Shown here piece by piece: positions 56,672-60,610 of a DNA stretch of 64,000 bases. The translations under genes and the position numbers were made by a program. The notes under the pieces are model-generated. The model made no database searches and was not told the DNA's origin. It saw only the letters and a program-made list of their open reading frames with translations. The stretch is from Betaproteobacteria bacterium (GTDB lineage Bacteria > Pseudomonadota > Gammaproteobacteria > Burkholderiales > Rhodocyclaceae): the NCBI GenBank assembly GCA_020621405.1, contig JAHRYN010000007.1, positions 62,001 to 126,000 of the forward strand, read 5' to 3'. Position 1 is the first letter of the stretch, and each line of letters starts with the position of its first letter.

Positions 56672-57061
56672 TCAGCCGGCCGGGCTGCCGCTGAACCACC
56701 ACCATCCGGCACAGCCGAGCGCCAGCGCGACGACGGCCGCGACGGCCAGATTGCGCTGCAGCGCGTAACGCTCCAGCCGGACCAGCGGTGTCCGGTACGC
56801 GATGTAGAGGAAACCGCCGGCGAACAGCGCCAGCACGCCGAGCAAGGTCCAGCGGTTGCCCAGCCGCCCGGCGGCGCGCAGCAGGGTGCCGCAGACCAGG
56901 ATCAGCGCGAACTGCAGCAGCAGCGACAGTGGCGTGATGCCGGTACGCGAGCGGCCGCCGCAGGCCGGGCAGACGACCGGCGCTTTGGCCCGCGCGGCAA
57001 GCCTGGCCAGACGGCCGATGGTGTCCCGCCCGCAGTGCGGACAGCGTGAAAGTACGGCCAA
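56672..57061 (-). CDS. Zinc-ribbon membrane protein of unknown function
   Basis: 129 aa starting at TTG 57061, only one base after the kinase stop, so expression depends on the kinase gene. N-terminal zinc ribbon CPHC...CPAC (Cys7, Cys10, Cys31, Cys34), then three membrane helices (about 44-64, 71-89, 102-122). No ribosome-binding site of its own is evident. I do not recognise a named family. The position suggests a partner or substrate of the kinase and heme sensor. Confidence 0.72.
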   Translation of the reverse strand: MAVLSRCPHCGRDTIGRLARLAARAKAPVVCPACGGRSRTGITPLSLLLQFALILVCGTLLRAAGRLGNRWTLLGVLALFAGGFLYIAYRTPLVRLERYALQRNLAVAAVVALALGCAGWWWFSGSPAG

Positions 57062-57062
57062 G

Positions 57063-59183
57063 CTACTTGCCCGACAGGAAGGCGGCGCGCTGCACCGGGT
57101 CTGGGATGTCGCGTGCCAGCTCCTCCAGCAGCGCCTGTTCGGTGGCGGTCCGCTTCAGCGCGCGGCCGACCAGGATGCGCGCCATCGGACCGATGAGCCG
57201 CGCCAGCCGGCGTTCGATGTCGGCGATGACCTGTTCGTCCAGCGGACGCCCGCCGGCCGCACGCGTCCGGCCCGACGTACTGCCTGACGGCGGCGCGGCG
57301 CGACGGGAAGCGGACACTGACGACGACACCGACGCCTGGATGCTGGCCGAGGCGGACGCCGCGACGTGGCGCTGCGCCTCGATCAGGAAACCGGCGCGCT
57401 GCGCTTCGTTCGGTATGTGCTGCGCCAGTTGCTCGATCAGTTGTGCCGGCGCGCGCACCCTTGGCGCGATGCGCGACACCAGAACACGGGCCATCGGCCC
57501 GATGTGGCGCGCCAGCAGCGCTTCGAGCATCGGTGTCAGCGCGTCATTCCCGATGCCGGGCTGAGCGTCGTCGACGCGTCGCGTGATGCCGCTGCGGCTG
57601 TCGAGTTCGAACACCTCCTGACTGCGCGATGCGATCTCGACACGCTGGCCGGTGATGTGCAGTCCGTCCGGCGCGCCGCTGCCGAGCGCCGACACGGTTT
57701 CGTAATAGGCCCGCGACACCAGTACCTGCCCCGAATAAGCCAGTTCGGCCAGCGCACGCGCCGCGTCGAGACCGTCGCCATACAGGTCGAGCGCACCGCT
57801 GTTGGCGCGCGCCACCCGCACCGGCCCGAGGTTGATGCCCTGCTTGAGTCCGCCGCCGGCATCGCCGAATCCGTCCACGAAATCCAGCTTGCGCAGGCGC
57901 TGGGCGACCACGCAGGCATCTTCCGGCTGGCCGAGCAGGCACAGCGCGGCGCCATCCGCGGTGTCGTGGATGAGCCGGCTGTCCGCGTCGACCGAGCGCG
58001 CGGCGCGCGCCAGGGCCTCGTCCAGTTGGGACTTGCAGGCCAGCCGCTGCGCGGTATCGAGTTCGACGCTGCGGTCGATCTGCGCATACAGCACGCTGCA
58101 CACGATGGTGCGACGCTCTTCCGAGGCACCGCTGGCCCGTACCGTCGGAGCAGCCGGTGCAGCCTGCGCCGTCCCGGCGGCCAGCGGACCGCGCGCGGCA
58201 GGCGCCGCCATGAACACGCGGCGGAAGTCGGCGACGTTGCGCGGACGGCGCGAATCGTGCGGTTCCAGCCCCCAGTCGATGGCGCGCAGCAGCGAAGCGC
58301 CGAACACCGAGGCGTCGGCCGCGCGCGACGCCGGCTGCAGCGGATCGTTGTGCACGCGCGCCGCGGATTCCACCGGACGCTGGCCGGTGACCAGCCAGTA
58401 CATGACCGCGGCCAGCGCGTAGATGTCGGTCCACGGCCCCTGGTTGCCGTGCGAGTGGTACTGCTCGAACGGCGCGAAACCCGGCGTGACGATGGCCGTC
58501 AGCGTGTGTTCGGTGTCGTGGTAGCGGCGTGCCGCGCCGAAGTCGAGCAGCACCGGCGTACCGTCGTCGCGGATGCAGATGTTGGGCGGCTTGATGTCAC
58601 GGTGCAGGAAACCACCGTCGTGGATCACCTGCAGGCCTTCGAGCAGCGGACGCACGATGGCCAGCAGCGTCGCCTTGTCCATCGGTGCGTTGCGCTCGCG
58701 CACCCACTGGTTCAGTGGCCGGCCCTGCTCGTAGTCCATCACCATGTAGGCGCTGCCGTTCGCCTCGAAGAAGCGGCTGACGCGCACGATGTGCGGATGG
58801 CGAAAATTGGCCAGCGCGCGTGATTCATCCAGGAAACGGCGCAGGCCCTGCTCGAACATTTCGACAGCCGGGCCGCTGCGCGGCATCACGCGCTGGCCGT
58901 CGCCGCGCACCGCAATGTCGGTCGGCAGGAACTCCTTGATCGCCACCTTGCAGTCGAGCAGCGTGTCGTGTGCGAGATAGGTCAGTCCGAAGCCGCCGCC
59001 GCCGAGCAGCGATTCGATGCGGTATTCGTTGAGCGCCCAGCCGGTCGGCAGTGCGCCCGGACTGGCATTCGCGGTGGGCATGAAACCGGCGCCTGCCAGT
59101 ACCTCGGCCACCACGCTGTCCTCGGTGAAGGCCTCGTCGTCTGCGCCGAACGGCTGCGACGGATCGGCGGGTCCGGTCGCCAC
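57063..59183 (-). CDS. Ser/Thr protein kinase with cyclase-homology domain and tandem C-terminal repeats
   Basis: 706-aa cytoplasmic protein starting at GTG 59183. Kinase domain about 52-325: glycine loop LLGGGGFGLTYLA, Lys83 in VAIK, HRDIKPPN (194-201), DFG (214-216). Residues about 355-530 resemble a class III nucleotide cyclase domain (SVLYAQIDRS, DTADGAALCLL, LYGDGLDAARAL) but the catalytic residues look degenerate. Two copies of a 50-residue unit follow (about 548-600 and 649-703), each with IGPMAR(V/I)LV and QRA(G/A)FL. An Ala/Ser-rich linker separates them. No membrane span. Three bases after the heme sensor gene. Confidence 0.9.
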   Translation of the reverse strand: MATGPADPSQPFGADDEAFTEDSVVAEVLAGAGFMPTANASPGALPTGWALNEYRIESLLGGGGFGLTYLAHDTLLDCKVAIKEFLPTDIAVRGDGQRVMPRSGPAVEMFEQGLRRFLDESRALANFRHPHIVRVSRFFEANGSAYMVMDYEQGRPLNQWVRERNAPMDKATLLAIVRPLLEGLQVIHDGGFLHRDIKPPNICIRDDGTPVLLDFGAARRYHDTEHTLTAIVTPGFAPFEQYHSHGNQGPWTDIYALAAVMYWLVTGQRPVESAARVHNDPLQPASRAADASVFGASLLRAIDWGLEPHDSRRPRNVADFRRVFMAAPAARGPLAAGTAQAAPAAPTVRASGASEERRTIVCSVLYAQIDRSVELDTAQRLACKSQLDEALARAARSVDADSRLIHDTADGAALCLLGQPEDACVVAQRLRKLDFVDGFGDAGGGLKQGINLGPVRVARANSGALDLYGDGLDAARALAELAYSGQVLVSRAYYETVSALGSGAPDGLHITGQRVEIASRSQEVFELDSRSGITRRVDDAQPGIGNDALTPMLEALLARHIGPMARVLVSRIAPRVRAPAQLIEQLAQHIPNEAQRAGFLIEAQRHVAASASASIQASVSSSVSASRRAAPPSGSTSGRTRAAGGRPLDEQVIADIERRLARLIGPMARILVGRALKRTATEQALLEELARDIPDPVQRAAFLSGK

Positions 59184-59186
59184 CGC

Positions 59187-60059
59187 TCAGCTGTCTATCA
59201 TGCGCATCGCAGTTTCCAGGCTGCGACGCATGCGATTGAAGGATGCACCGAGCACCGACACCTCGTCGCGACCGTTATCGCCGAACTCCGGTACCGAGAA
59301 GTCGCCGGTACTGACCTGGTCGGCCGCCGCAGACATGCGCGCGACCGGGCGGATGATCAGCCATTCCAGCATCAGGTTCAGCGCCAGCATGACGAACACG
59401 AACACGCCGAGCAGCGACAGCATGAAGGTGTTGAAGGCACGGTCGGCATTGCCGACCGGCACCGCCATCGGCACCGACACCACCTGCGCACCGATGATTT
59501 CGTTGATCTTCCAGCCGAAGCCGTTGGCTTCGCCGTACACCTTCACCATGGTCGGCGGCGCGCTGGCCGCCGAGTTGTGGCAGGCCAGACAGGCCGGATT
59601 GCTGATCTTGATCGGTCGCGCGATATACATGTGGCGACCGGTCGGCGTATCGCGTTCGCCGGTCAGTTCCGTCGTGCCGTCCGCATTGCGGAAGCTGGTG
59701 ACGATGTCGGCTTCCCAGTCGGACGCCCTGTCACGCGGATTGGTCGGATTCAGCGTCGCTTCCTTGTACGCGTATTCCGGGTGGTTCTTGCGCAATTCGT
59801 TCAGCGTTTCGGTCGCCGCGTACGCCGGCACCGTCTGCGGCAGGAAGCGCTCGGCCAGCATCGGATCGAGGTGTGGCTTGATCTGGCCGACCGTATAGCT
59901 GCGAATGGCCAGCGCCGTTTCCATCATCAGCCGTGCGTTGCGCTCGACCTCGGCCCGTGCATTTTCGTGCAGCAGCCGGTGCGACAGCGCCGCGCAGGCC
60001 GCGAGACCGATGGCAAAAACGCCGATCAGCACAAGGTTGAACTTGAGTCTGAGTCCCAT
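59187..60059 (-). CDS. Membrane c-type heme sensor (DUF3365/Tll0287-like) with HAMP
   Basis: 290 aa. Membrane helix 1 about 8-28, a periplasmic Tll0287-like domain with the covalent heme motif CLACH (157-161), membrane helix 2 about 211-233, and a cytoplasmic HAMP domain (RPVARMSAAADQVSTGDF to SFNRMRRSLETAMRM). It ends right after the HAMP, with no kinase or cyclase output domain. The next gene, three bases away, is a Ser/Thr kinase. It therefore looks like a redox or gas sensor whose output is in trans; this is inference. Confidence 0.9.
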   Translation of the reverse strand: MGLRLKFNLVLIGVFAIGLAACAALSHRLLHENARAEVERNARLMMETALAIRSYTVGQIKPHLDPMLAERFLPQTVPAYAATETLNELRKNHPEYAYKEATLNPTNPRDRASDWEADIVTSFRNADGTTELTGERDTPTGRHMYIARPIKISNPACLACHNSAASAPPTMVKVYGEANGFGWKINEIIGAQVVSVPMAVPVGNADRAFNTFMLSLLGVFVFVMLALNLMLEWLIIRPVARMSAAADQVSTGDFSVPEFGDNGRDEVSVLGASFNRMRRSLETAMRMIDS

Positions 60060-60211: not shown

Positions 60212-60610
60212 TCAGCCGCCGATGCTTGCGTACGGCCCACGGTGCATCCACCACCATGCGATGGCCGCGACGGACAGCGCCCACAGCAGCAGGACGCACA
60301 CCCCGGCGATCCAGTTGGCTGGCAGCGTGCCCTCGCGCGCCCGCGCACGAGCCGCGTCCATCACGTCATGCGGAATCATGGCCCGCGCCAGCCAGATGCC
60401 CAGCGGCAGCAGCACCAGCTCGTCGAGCAGGCCGAATACCGGGATGAAATCGGGGATCAGGTCGATCGGGCTGGCCGCGTAGGCGAGCAGGAACAGCAGC
60501 AGTATCTTCGCCCGTCGCGGCGTGCGCGTGTCCTGTGCGGCAATGGCAAGGGCCATCAATTCCAGCTTGATGGCGCTGATGCGGCTGCGGATGGAATCGG
60601 AGAGGCCCAT
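60212..60610 (-). CDS. DUF1232 (YkvA-type) membrane protein
   Basis: 132 aa with the family signature LLAYAASPIDLIPDFIPVFGLLDELVLLPLG and two or three membrane helices. Function unknown; the family occurs across bacteria. Separated from the rng gene by 24 bases and read in the same direction, so it is probably in its transcript. Confidence 0.9.
   Translation of the reverse strand: MGLSDSIRSRISAIKLELMALAIAAQDTRTPRRAKILLLFLLAYAASPIDLIPDFIPVFGLLDELVLLPLGIWLARAMIPHDVMDAARARAREGTLPANWIAGVCVLLLWALSVAAIAWWWMHRGPYASIGG

Follow-up and report, generated by a model that had tools for sequence, protein, structure and literature searches.

A putative c-heme receptor ending at its HAMP domain and a separate Ser/Thr kinase with STAC-like repeats form a conserved two-gene system

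A membrane receptor that ends at a HAMP domain and a separate serine/threonine (Ser/Thr) kinase encoded next to it make up a real and conserved two-gene receptor-effector system, which is described here from a stretch of DNA of a Betaproteobacteria bacterium of the Rhodocyclaceae. The stretch, called the window throughout, is 64,000 nucleotides long (assembly GCA_020621405.1, contig JAHRYN010000007.1, positions 62,001 to 126,000 of the forward strand). Three minus-strand open reading frames (ORFs) were confirmed at its positions 56672-60059: the sensor, the kinase, and a zinc-ribbon gene. The kinase carries a duplicated C-terminal unit, about 57 residues long with IGPxA at its core, which is named Rep here. 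Rep resembles the STAC domains, of which it is probably a divergent representative. On balance, we think it probable that the receptor signals via its HAMP domain to the STAC-like repeats of the kinase, the two proteins being the halves of one transmembrane system. The features of the locus are as follows.

59187-60059, minus strand: receptor consisting of a first transmembrane helix, a periplasmic c-heme Cache domain (Tll0287-like), a second transmembrane helix, HAMP, and stop (PF11845 and HAMP matches)
59577-59591, minus strand: CLACH motif for heme c attachment, residues 157-161
59214-59363, minus strand: HAMP domain, the final domain of the receptor, residues 233-282
57063-59183, minus strand: Ser/Thr kinase with a cyclase-like domain and two Rep units (Pfam and our own profiles)
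58365-59024, minus strand: protein kinase domain, PF00069, residues 54-273, E 6e-34
57588-58133, minus strand: cyclase-like domain, in which three aligned catalytic positions are degenerate, residues 351-532 (own profile and alignment)
57366-57545, minus strand: Rep unit 1, STAC-like four-helix unit, residues 547-606 (own profile; AlphaFold2, AF2)
57072-57242, minus strand: Rep unit 2, STAC-like four-helix unit, residues 648-704 (own profile; AF2)
56672-57061, minus strand: zinc-ribbon membrane protein, a genus-specific neighbor that is unlikely to be a core part (found in all 13 genus genomes and in none of 48 others)

The sensor has 290 amino acids and an ATG start. It matches PF11845 (Tll0287-like) over residues 32-197 with an E value of 1.2e-39 (136.5 bits against a cut-off of 24.1), and HAMP with an E value of 7.9e-13. 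The CXXCH motif is present in 81 of 81 sensors (80 relatives and the window’s), and, judged by sequence, the periplasmic domain belongs to sCache_heme. The stop codon lies 8 residues past the Pfam HAMP match, as the first-pass annotation had it when it described a heme protein that stops directly after HAMP. All 80 related sensors also end 0-7 residues after the match to our sensor profile, the end of which is HAMP; the profile was built from HAMP-ending sensors, and the hits themselves were not selected for a HAMP ending. The same annotation held that such heme domains are usually fused to outputs, which does not stand, given that nearly half of them are stand-alone according to the accessible text of PMC12889525.

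Three base pairs (bp) separate the sensor from the kinase, and 1 bp separates the kinase from the zinc-ribbon gene. The kinase has 706 amino acids and a GTG start, and it bears the Hanks-type motifs VAIKEF, HRDIKPPN, and DFG; by pattern match, the kinase lysine, HRD, and DFG motifs occur in 67, 69, and 68 of 69 partner kinases, respectively. ORFs and domain matches bear out the coordinates and descriptions first given for the three genes, and our own profiles, which were used for sensor, kinase, cyclase, and Rep, recovered both the cyclase-homology domain and the duplicated C-terminal unit that had been noted in the kinase. Three positions that read D, N, and R in 14 of 15 aligned stand-alone partner cyclases, and whose roles we take to be catalytic, are occupied by Q, D, and A in the window’s cyclase-like domain. 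Because of these replacements, it is probably not an enzyme, and in this genus the degenerate domain would have a structural or regulatory role. Certain kinase-cyclase partners from other genera retain D, N, and R.

The evidence for the pair as a unit comes from its recurrence. A scan of the genome collection confirmed at least 575 relatives of the sensor, and the best 80, which are 53-90% identical, were analyzed. A Rep protein is encoded on the same strand within 600 bp of the sensor in 77 of the 80 loci, the three exceptions being L292 (Rep at 854 bp), L286 (at a contig end), and L300 (without Rep). The intergenic gap is 35 bp or less in 63 of 78 sensor-Rep pairs, and the Rep partner lies downstream of the sensor in 73 and upstream in 5. 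At L175, the sole Rep match beside the sensor is a 17-bit unit.

Whole genomes give the same picture. In a sample of the order (200 genomes), 20 genomes, the window’s included, hold a sensor not fused to GGDEF at E 3.4e-66 or better, and Rep is present in 19 of these 20 versus 3 of the 180 others; in a sample of the class (369 genomes), 27 hold a sensor at 2.9e-40 or better, and Rep is present in 25 of them versus 4 of the 342 others. The genome lists behind these Fisher tables were compiled by hand, with the window’s genome in both samples, the GGDEF-fused G073 left out, and G065 counted via another Rep protein than the sensor-adjacent one, which a contig end cuts. The two samples supply 48 sensor loci, with a Rep neighbor in 40, a contig edge in 4, and no Rep neighbor in 4: L097, L098 (GGDEF-fused), L152, and L170 (kinase frame cut by a contig end). 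A kinase adjoins most of these sensors, in some cases one only about 30% identical to the window’s, and at L084 a class III cyclase takes its place. Sensor and kinase are thus not merely local neighbors, and the first reading of a sensor and output split over two genes is confirmed, with a pairing that is conserved far beyond the genus. Outside the class the system is sparse, since Rep was found in only 2 of 229 genomes of a phylum sample, the window’s and another that has the same pair.

Across these loci, Rep is what the partners have in common, and the enzyme varies. With the window’s included, type-B kinases account for 28 of the partners, type-A kinases for 17, type-A kinases that also have a cyclase-like domain for 25, and cyclases for 9. 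On a maximum-likelihood tree of the 81 sensors, the enzyme type changes at least 11 times by parsimony, a minimum to be read with the quick method and many weak branches of the tree, whose starred branches alone require no more than 1 to 3 changes in each group. At L146, L147, L294, and L307, one and the same sensor is flanked by a cyclase-Rep gene and a kinase-Rep gene.

The receptor side varies as well. At L212, L213, L246, and L247, a dCache_1 receptor with HAMP as its final domain adjoins a small protein with one Rep unit, and one of these four small proteins has a below-cut-off match to DUF4388. The L105 sensor has lost any CXXCH or Tll0287 match and keeps its HAMP, and its neighbor is little more than two Rep units; the L173 sensor is missing the middle of its periplasmic part and lies beside a cyclase-Rep protein. 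Three fusions of Tll0287 to GGDEF have no Rep neighbor. On the whole, then, Rep accompanies receptors that end in HAMP, and not the heme domain or any one enzyme. A different arrangement was seen in two large proteins (L048:6574-9615 and L215:5656-8199), each of which has an N-terminal Ser/Thr kinase related to the window’s, followed by dCache_1 and, as the last domain, HAMP, and has no Rep. Receptor and kinase are here in a single chain, in the reverse order.

The likeness of Rep to STAC rests on several comparisons. STAC domains are bundles of four helices, 60-90 residues in length. The archaeal STAC protein Af1502 is a four-helix bundle with the motif LGPx(x)A between helices 1 and 2, as described in the accessible part of PMC4834066. 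The prediction for each Rep unit is likewise a bundle of four helices, and the linker that joins the two units is predicted to be disordered. In the AF2 model of the tandem, the first-unit helices span residues 10-22, 26-36, 40-48, and 54-80, the mean predicted local distance difference test score (pLDDT) is 81.9, and both bundles contain blocks above 90; a single unit gave a mean of 84.8. The GPxA motif of Rep sits between helices 1 and 2 of these models. In the form [ILMV]GPxA it is found in 135 of 152 Rep units and only once in the 33,159 residues outside the units of the same proteins; the strict LGPx(x)A is found in only 29 of the 152. Rep also shares with STAC its genomic coupling to HAMP-ending receptors, as seen in the pairing, the co-occurrence, and the dCache loci. 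The best PDB match of the window sensor’s HAMP is Af1503, the receptor partner of Af1502, though Af1503 is also the most represented HAMP in those lists.

Profile searches place Rep in no Pfam or NCBIfam family: of 69 members, no more than 7 hit the same Pfam family (FR47, best E 0.035), and no more than 2 the same NCBIfam family. Its absence from Pfam is no argument against STAC, because the presumed STAC regions of six SLC5-type kinases have no above-cut-off Pfam model either. These six were checked from a comparison set of ten SLC5-linked proteins (L363-L372), which were found via weak SSF matches; all six have histidine kinase domains, and the STAC regions of the ten were assigned by position and motif. 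When aligned with these ten regions by hhalign, Rep gave a probability of 84, a P value of 7.3e-6, and a score of 32.1. None of 199 column shuffles did as well (mean 9.8, maximum 18.1), unrelated profiles scored 10 to 17, and a control with the cyclase alignment, without the Rep-bearing row of L292, gave a probability of 2. The register of the alignment is unexpected, with the first hairpin of Rep on the second hairpin of the SLC5-linked regions, and a repeated or rearranged hairpin may lie behind the shift. Both hairpins of the SLC5-type STAC regions carry a similar LxxxIGxxxA pattern.

Comparison of structures gave a fainter signal. A Foldseek search of the PDB with the tandem Rep model placed Af1502 (5A1Q) highest among the matches listed, with a probability of 0.72 against 0.25 for the next unrelated one and an E value of 3.7; a single unit compared with Af1502 reached a probability of 0.23 and an E value of 3.4. 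VIA gave a Z of 4.8 against Af1502, and for the single unit a Z of 5.5 (2.7 Å for 60 of 68 residues), which unrelated chains equaled. A sequence search of the PDB with Rep listed AF1502 at rank 20 of 22 (E 0.81).

How the pair would work can be proposed from these parts. The periplasmic c-heme Cache receptor would sense probably nitric oxide (NO) or redox state, with HAMP as its sole cytosolic part, and the two C-terminal STAC-like units of the kinase would dock on or near the HAMP dimer. A ligand-driven rearrangement of HAMP would then travel through the units and switch the activity of the kinase. In relatives, the same receptor and STAC-like units would drive a class III cyclase, the units serving as an adaptor and the enzyme being exchangeable. 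The contact between the two proteins is what we infer here, and the direction of the regulation, the ligand, and the substrates of the kinase are proposed in the same spirit. The Rep units rather than the kinase domain are the likely receiver because they are present in partners that are otherwise different (kinase, cyclase, DUF4388-like, and unit-only).

Several observations weigh against this proposal or parts of it. The fold match of the Rep models to Af1502 is weak and not unique, and deletion of STAC in CbrA and CrbS is reported to be without phenotype under the conditions used (PMC5715377, in its accessible part). As for the ligand, nitrite reductases are not enriched in sensor genomes (9 of 20 versus 67 of 180, p 0.33), and a link to NO production through these genes was set aside as not significant. 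NO as the ligand therefore stays a chemical analogy, and redox state is a live rival. That the coupling holds as proposed but responds to redox state, or to some other small ligand, instead of NO is plausible, though we would stop short of calling it probable; the c-type heme is in keeping with it, as is the lack of nitrite reductase enrichment. An additional cysteine within residues 29-205, however, is present in 0 of the 81 sensors, which therefore lack the axial Cys that the redox-type protein has. In this they resemble the HAMP-linked protein of P. azotoformans, which has no axial Cys, is a dimer in detergent, and binds NO with a slow release (koff 6.25e-4 per s), according to the accessible text of PMC12889525. 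Also on the side of NO is a cluster of three close-set matches to the cytochrome cd1 family PF02239 in the window’s genome (G000:C2:179247-186992).

A second alternative is direct action of HAMP on the kinase or cyclase domain, with Rep only dimerizing the enzyme or holding it at the membrane. Distances between HAMP domains correlate with those between kinase domains at 0.45 (66 pairs) versus 0.02 and 0.13 for the Rep units, other parts held constant, and among type-A kinases at 0.63 versus -0.03 and -0.13, which speaks for this alternative and against Rep as the receiver. In type-B kinases only, the Rep correlations are the higher ones (0.33 and 0.19 versus 0.04 for the kinase). Co-divergence as evidence of contact between HAMP and Rep is therefore mixed, Rep being ahead only in type B. 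Direct action is nonetheless unlikely in our judgment, since the enzyme types change while Rep persists, and the Rep-only and DUF4388-like partners have no kinase.

A third alternative is that the proteins are co-regulated without interacting, the sensor being a redox protein or acting elsewhere and Rep recruiting substrates to the kinase. It draws on the orphans of both kinds, which also count against the proposed signaling: the sensors L097, L152, L300, and the more distant L103 and L174 have no adjacent Rep, and the Rep proteins L206, L208, L209, L210, L211, and L250 have no adjacent HAMP receptor. The genomes of these six Rep proteins all hold a sensor elsewhere. Against it stand the tight gaps, the occurrence of both gene orders, and the near-complete co-occurrence in genomes, and we know of no use of HAMP other than relaying a signal, so we regard this alternative as decidedly unlikely. 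As a separate observation, in G517 (L152, L250) and G178 (L097, L206) the sensor and the Rep kinase are at separate genome sites; G178 also has an adjacent pair, L092.

The zinc-ribbon gene has a narrower distribution. It encodes a protein of 129 amino acids with a TTG start and two CPxC pairs, which matches no Pfam or NCBIfam model at cut-off; a simple hydropathy count gives three membrane segments in its L253 copy. Among the best 80 relatives listed, the nearest named ones of the window locus are from Methyloversatilis (L253, L254). Both the kinase and the zinc-ribbon gene occur in all 13 genus genomes, and the order of DUF1232 gene, sensor, kinase, and zinc-ribbon gene is identical in 12 genus loci besides the window. 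This arrangement, with its constant order in addition to its presence in all 13, is more than chance. The zinc-ribbon gene was found in none of the 48 genomes searched outside the genus (E 0.001), while the sensor-kinase pair does occur beyond the genus. A three-gene system is rejected beyond the genus, and the protein is a genus-level addition that is probably no core part. That it is a necessary partner or substrate, as first suggested, is very improbable on this distribution, despite the 1-bp gap, its presence throughout the genus, and the four Cys of both CPxC pairs, which are invariant among 13 aligned copies.

The gene for the DUF1232 protein (window 60212-60610, same strand) ends 152 bp upstream of the sensor, a place kept in the 12 other genus loci. 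When the neighbors of 80 sensor loci were clustered, with family names assigned by eye, no further conserved gene emerged, as neighbor families reach at most 9 of the 80 loci. The commonest are an ABC-type ATPase (9), a LysR-type regulator (8), and a secreted-looking protein of about 300 residues (8). The last is found near the sensor at eight type-B kinase loci (L297, L304, L305, L311, L312, L317, L321, and L322); its L304 copy lies upstream of the sensor and has no Pfam match at E 0.01.

The pairing suggests how receptors without an output of their own may pass their signal on. It bears on three questions: what the output of HAMP-ending receptors is, what STAC is for, and what acts downstream of sCache_heme proteins that are linked to HAMP. 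The function of STAC is called unknown in the accessible parts of PMC5715377 and PMC9100948, and the binding of NO by HAMP-linked sCache_heme proteins was reported in 2026 with no partner given in the accessible text (PMC12889525). A literature search, the coverage of which did not extend to the original STAC paper (Korycinski et al. 2015), found no paper joining these parts. All three questions become testable with a compact system of two genes that has a natural cyclase version, one that could be read out in laboratory E. coli. A more general view, in which STAC-like domains are general readers of HAMP and HAMP-ending receptors signal through them in trans to enzymes that can be exchanged, be they Ser/Thr kinases, class III cyclases, or DUF4388-like proteins, is possible but a little less than probable. 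If true, it would amount to a modular kind of transmembrane signaling, distinct from two-component and chemoreceptor systems, one case of which would be a periplasmic c-heme sensor of NO or redox state that controls Ser/Thr phosphorylation, and it would explain what the archaeal Af1503 talks to.

Among known systems, chemoreceptors and CheA offer a familiar case of an enzyme-less receptor that controls a separate kinase. The window sensor differs in having no signaling tip of a methyl-accepting chemotaxis protein (MCP), and its kinase is of the Ser/Thr type. PASTA kinases (NF033483) and kinase/cyclase fusions (TIGR03903) resemble the window’s protein in having a kinase, or a kinase with a cyclase-homology domain, with matches far below the cut-offs; to our knowledge, they have neither a HAMP-ending receptor as a partner nor Rep units. 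The SLC5-STAC histidine kinases of the CbrA/CrbS type also place STAC between a membrane module and a signaling enzyme, and the profile of their presumed STAC regions matches Rep, if in an unexpected register. In these proteins, however, STAC shares a chain with the membrane domain, the output is a histidine kinase, and the input is transporter-like. A coupling role for STAC under the membrane domain has been proposed from the structure of CbrA (PMC13022988, in its accessible part). On the receptor side, the sCache_heme protein of P. azotoformans (“Target 2”) has the same build of two transmembrane helices, c-heme Cache, and HAMP, with no output and no axial Cys, and no partner gene is described for it in the accessible text of PMC12889525. 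The closest likeness is to Af1503 and Af1502 of Archaeoglobus fulgidus, in which a receptor whose cytosolic portion is HAMP alone is coupled to a STAC domain, a small four-helix domain encoded by the neighboring gene (PMC4834066, in its accessible part). The sensor domain and the lineage differ, and the archaeal STAC stands alone with no known output, whereas here two units are joined to a kinase or a cyclase. The system of the window is thus a variant of the Af1503/Af1502 arrangement that includes a catalytic output.

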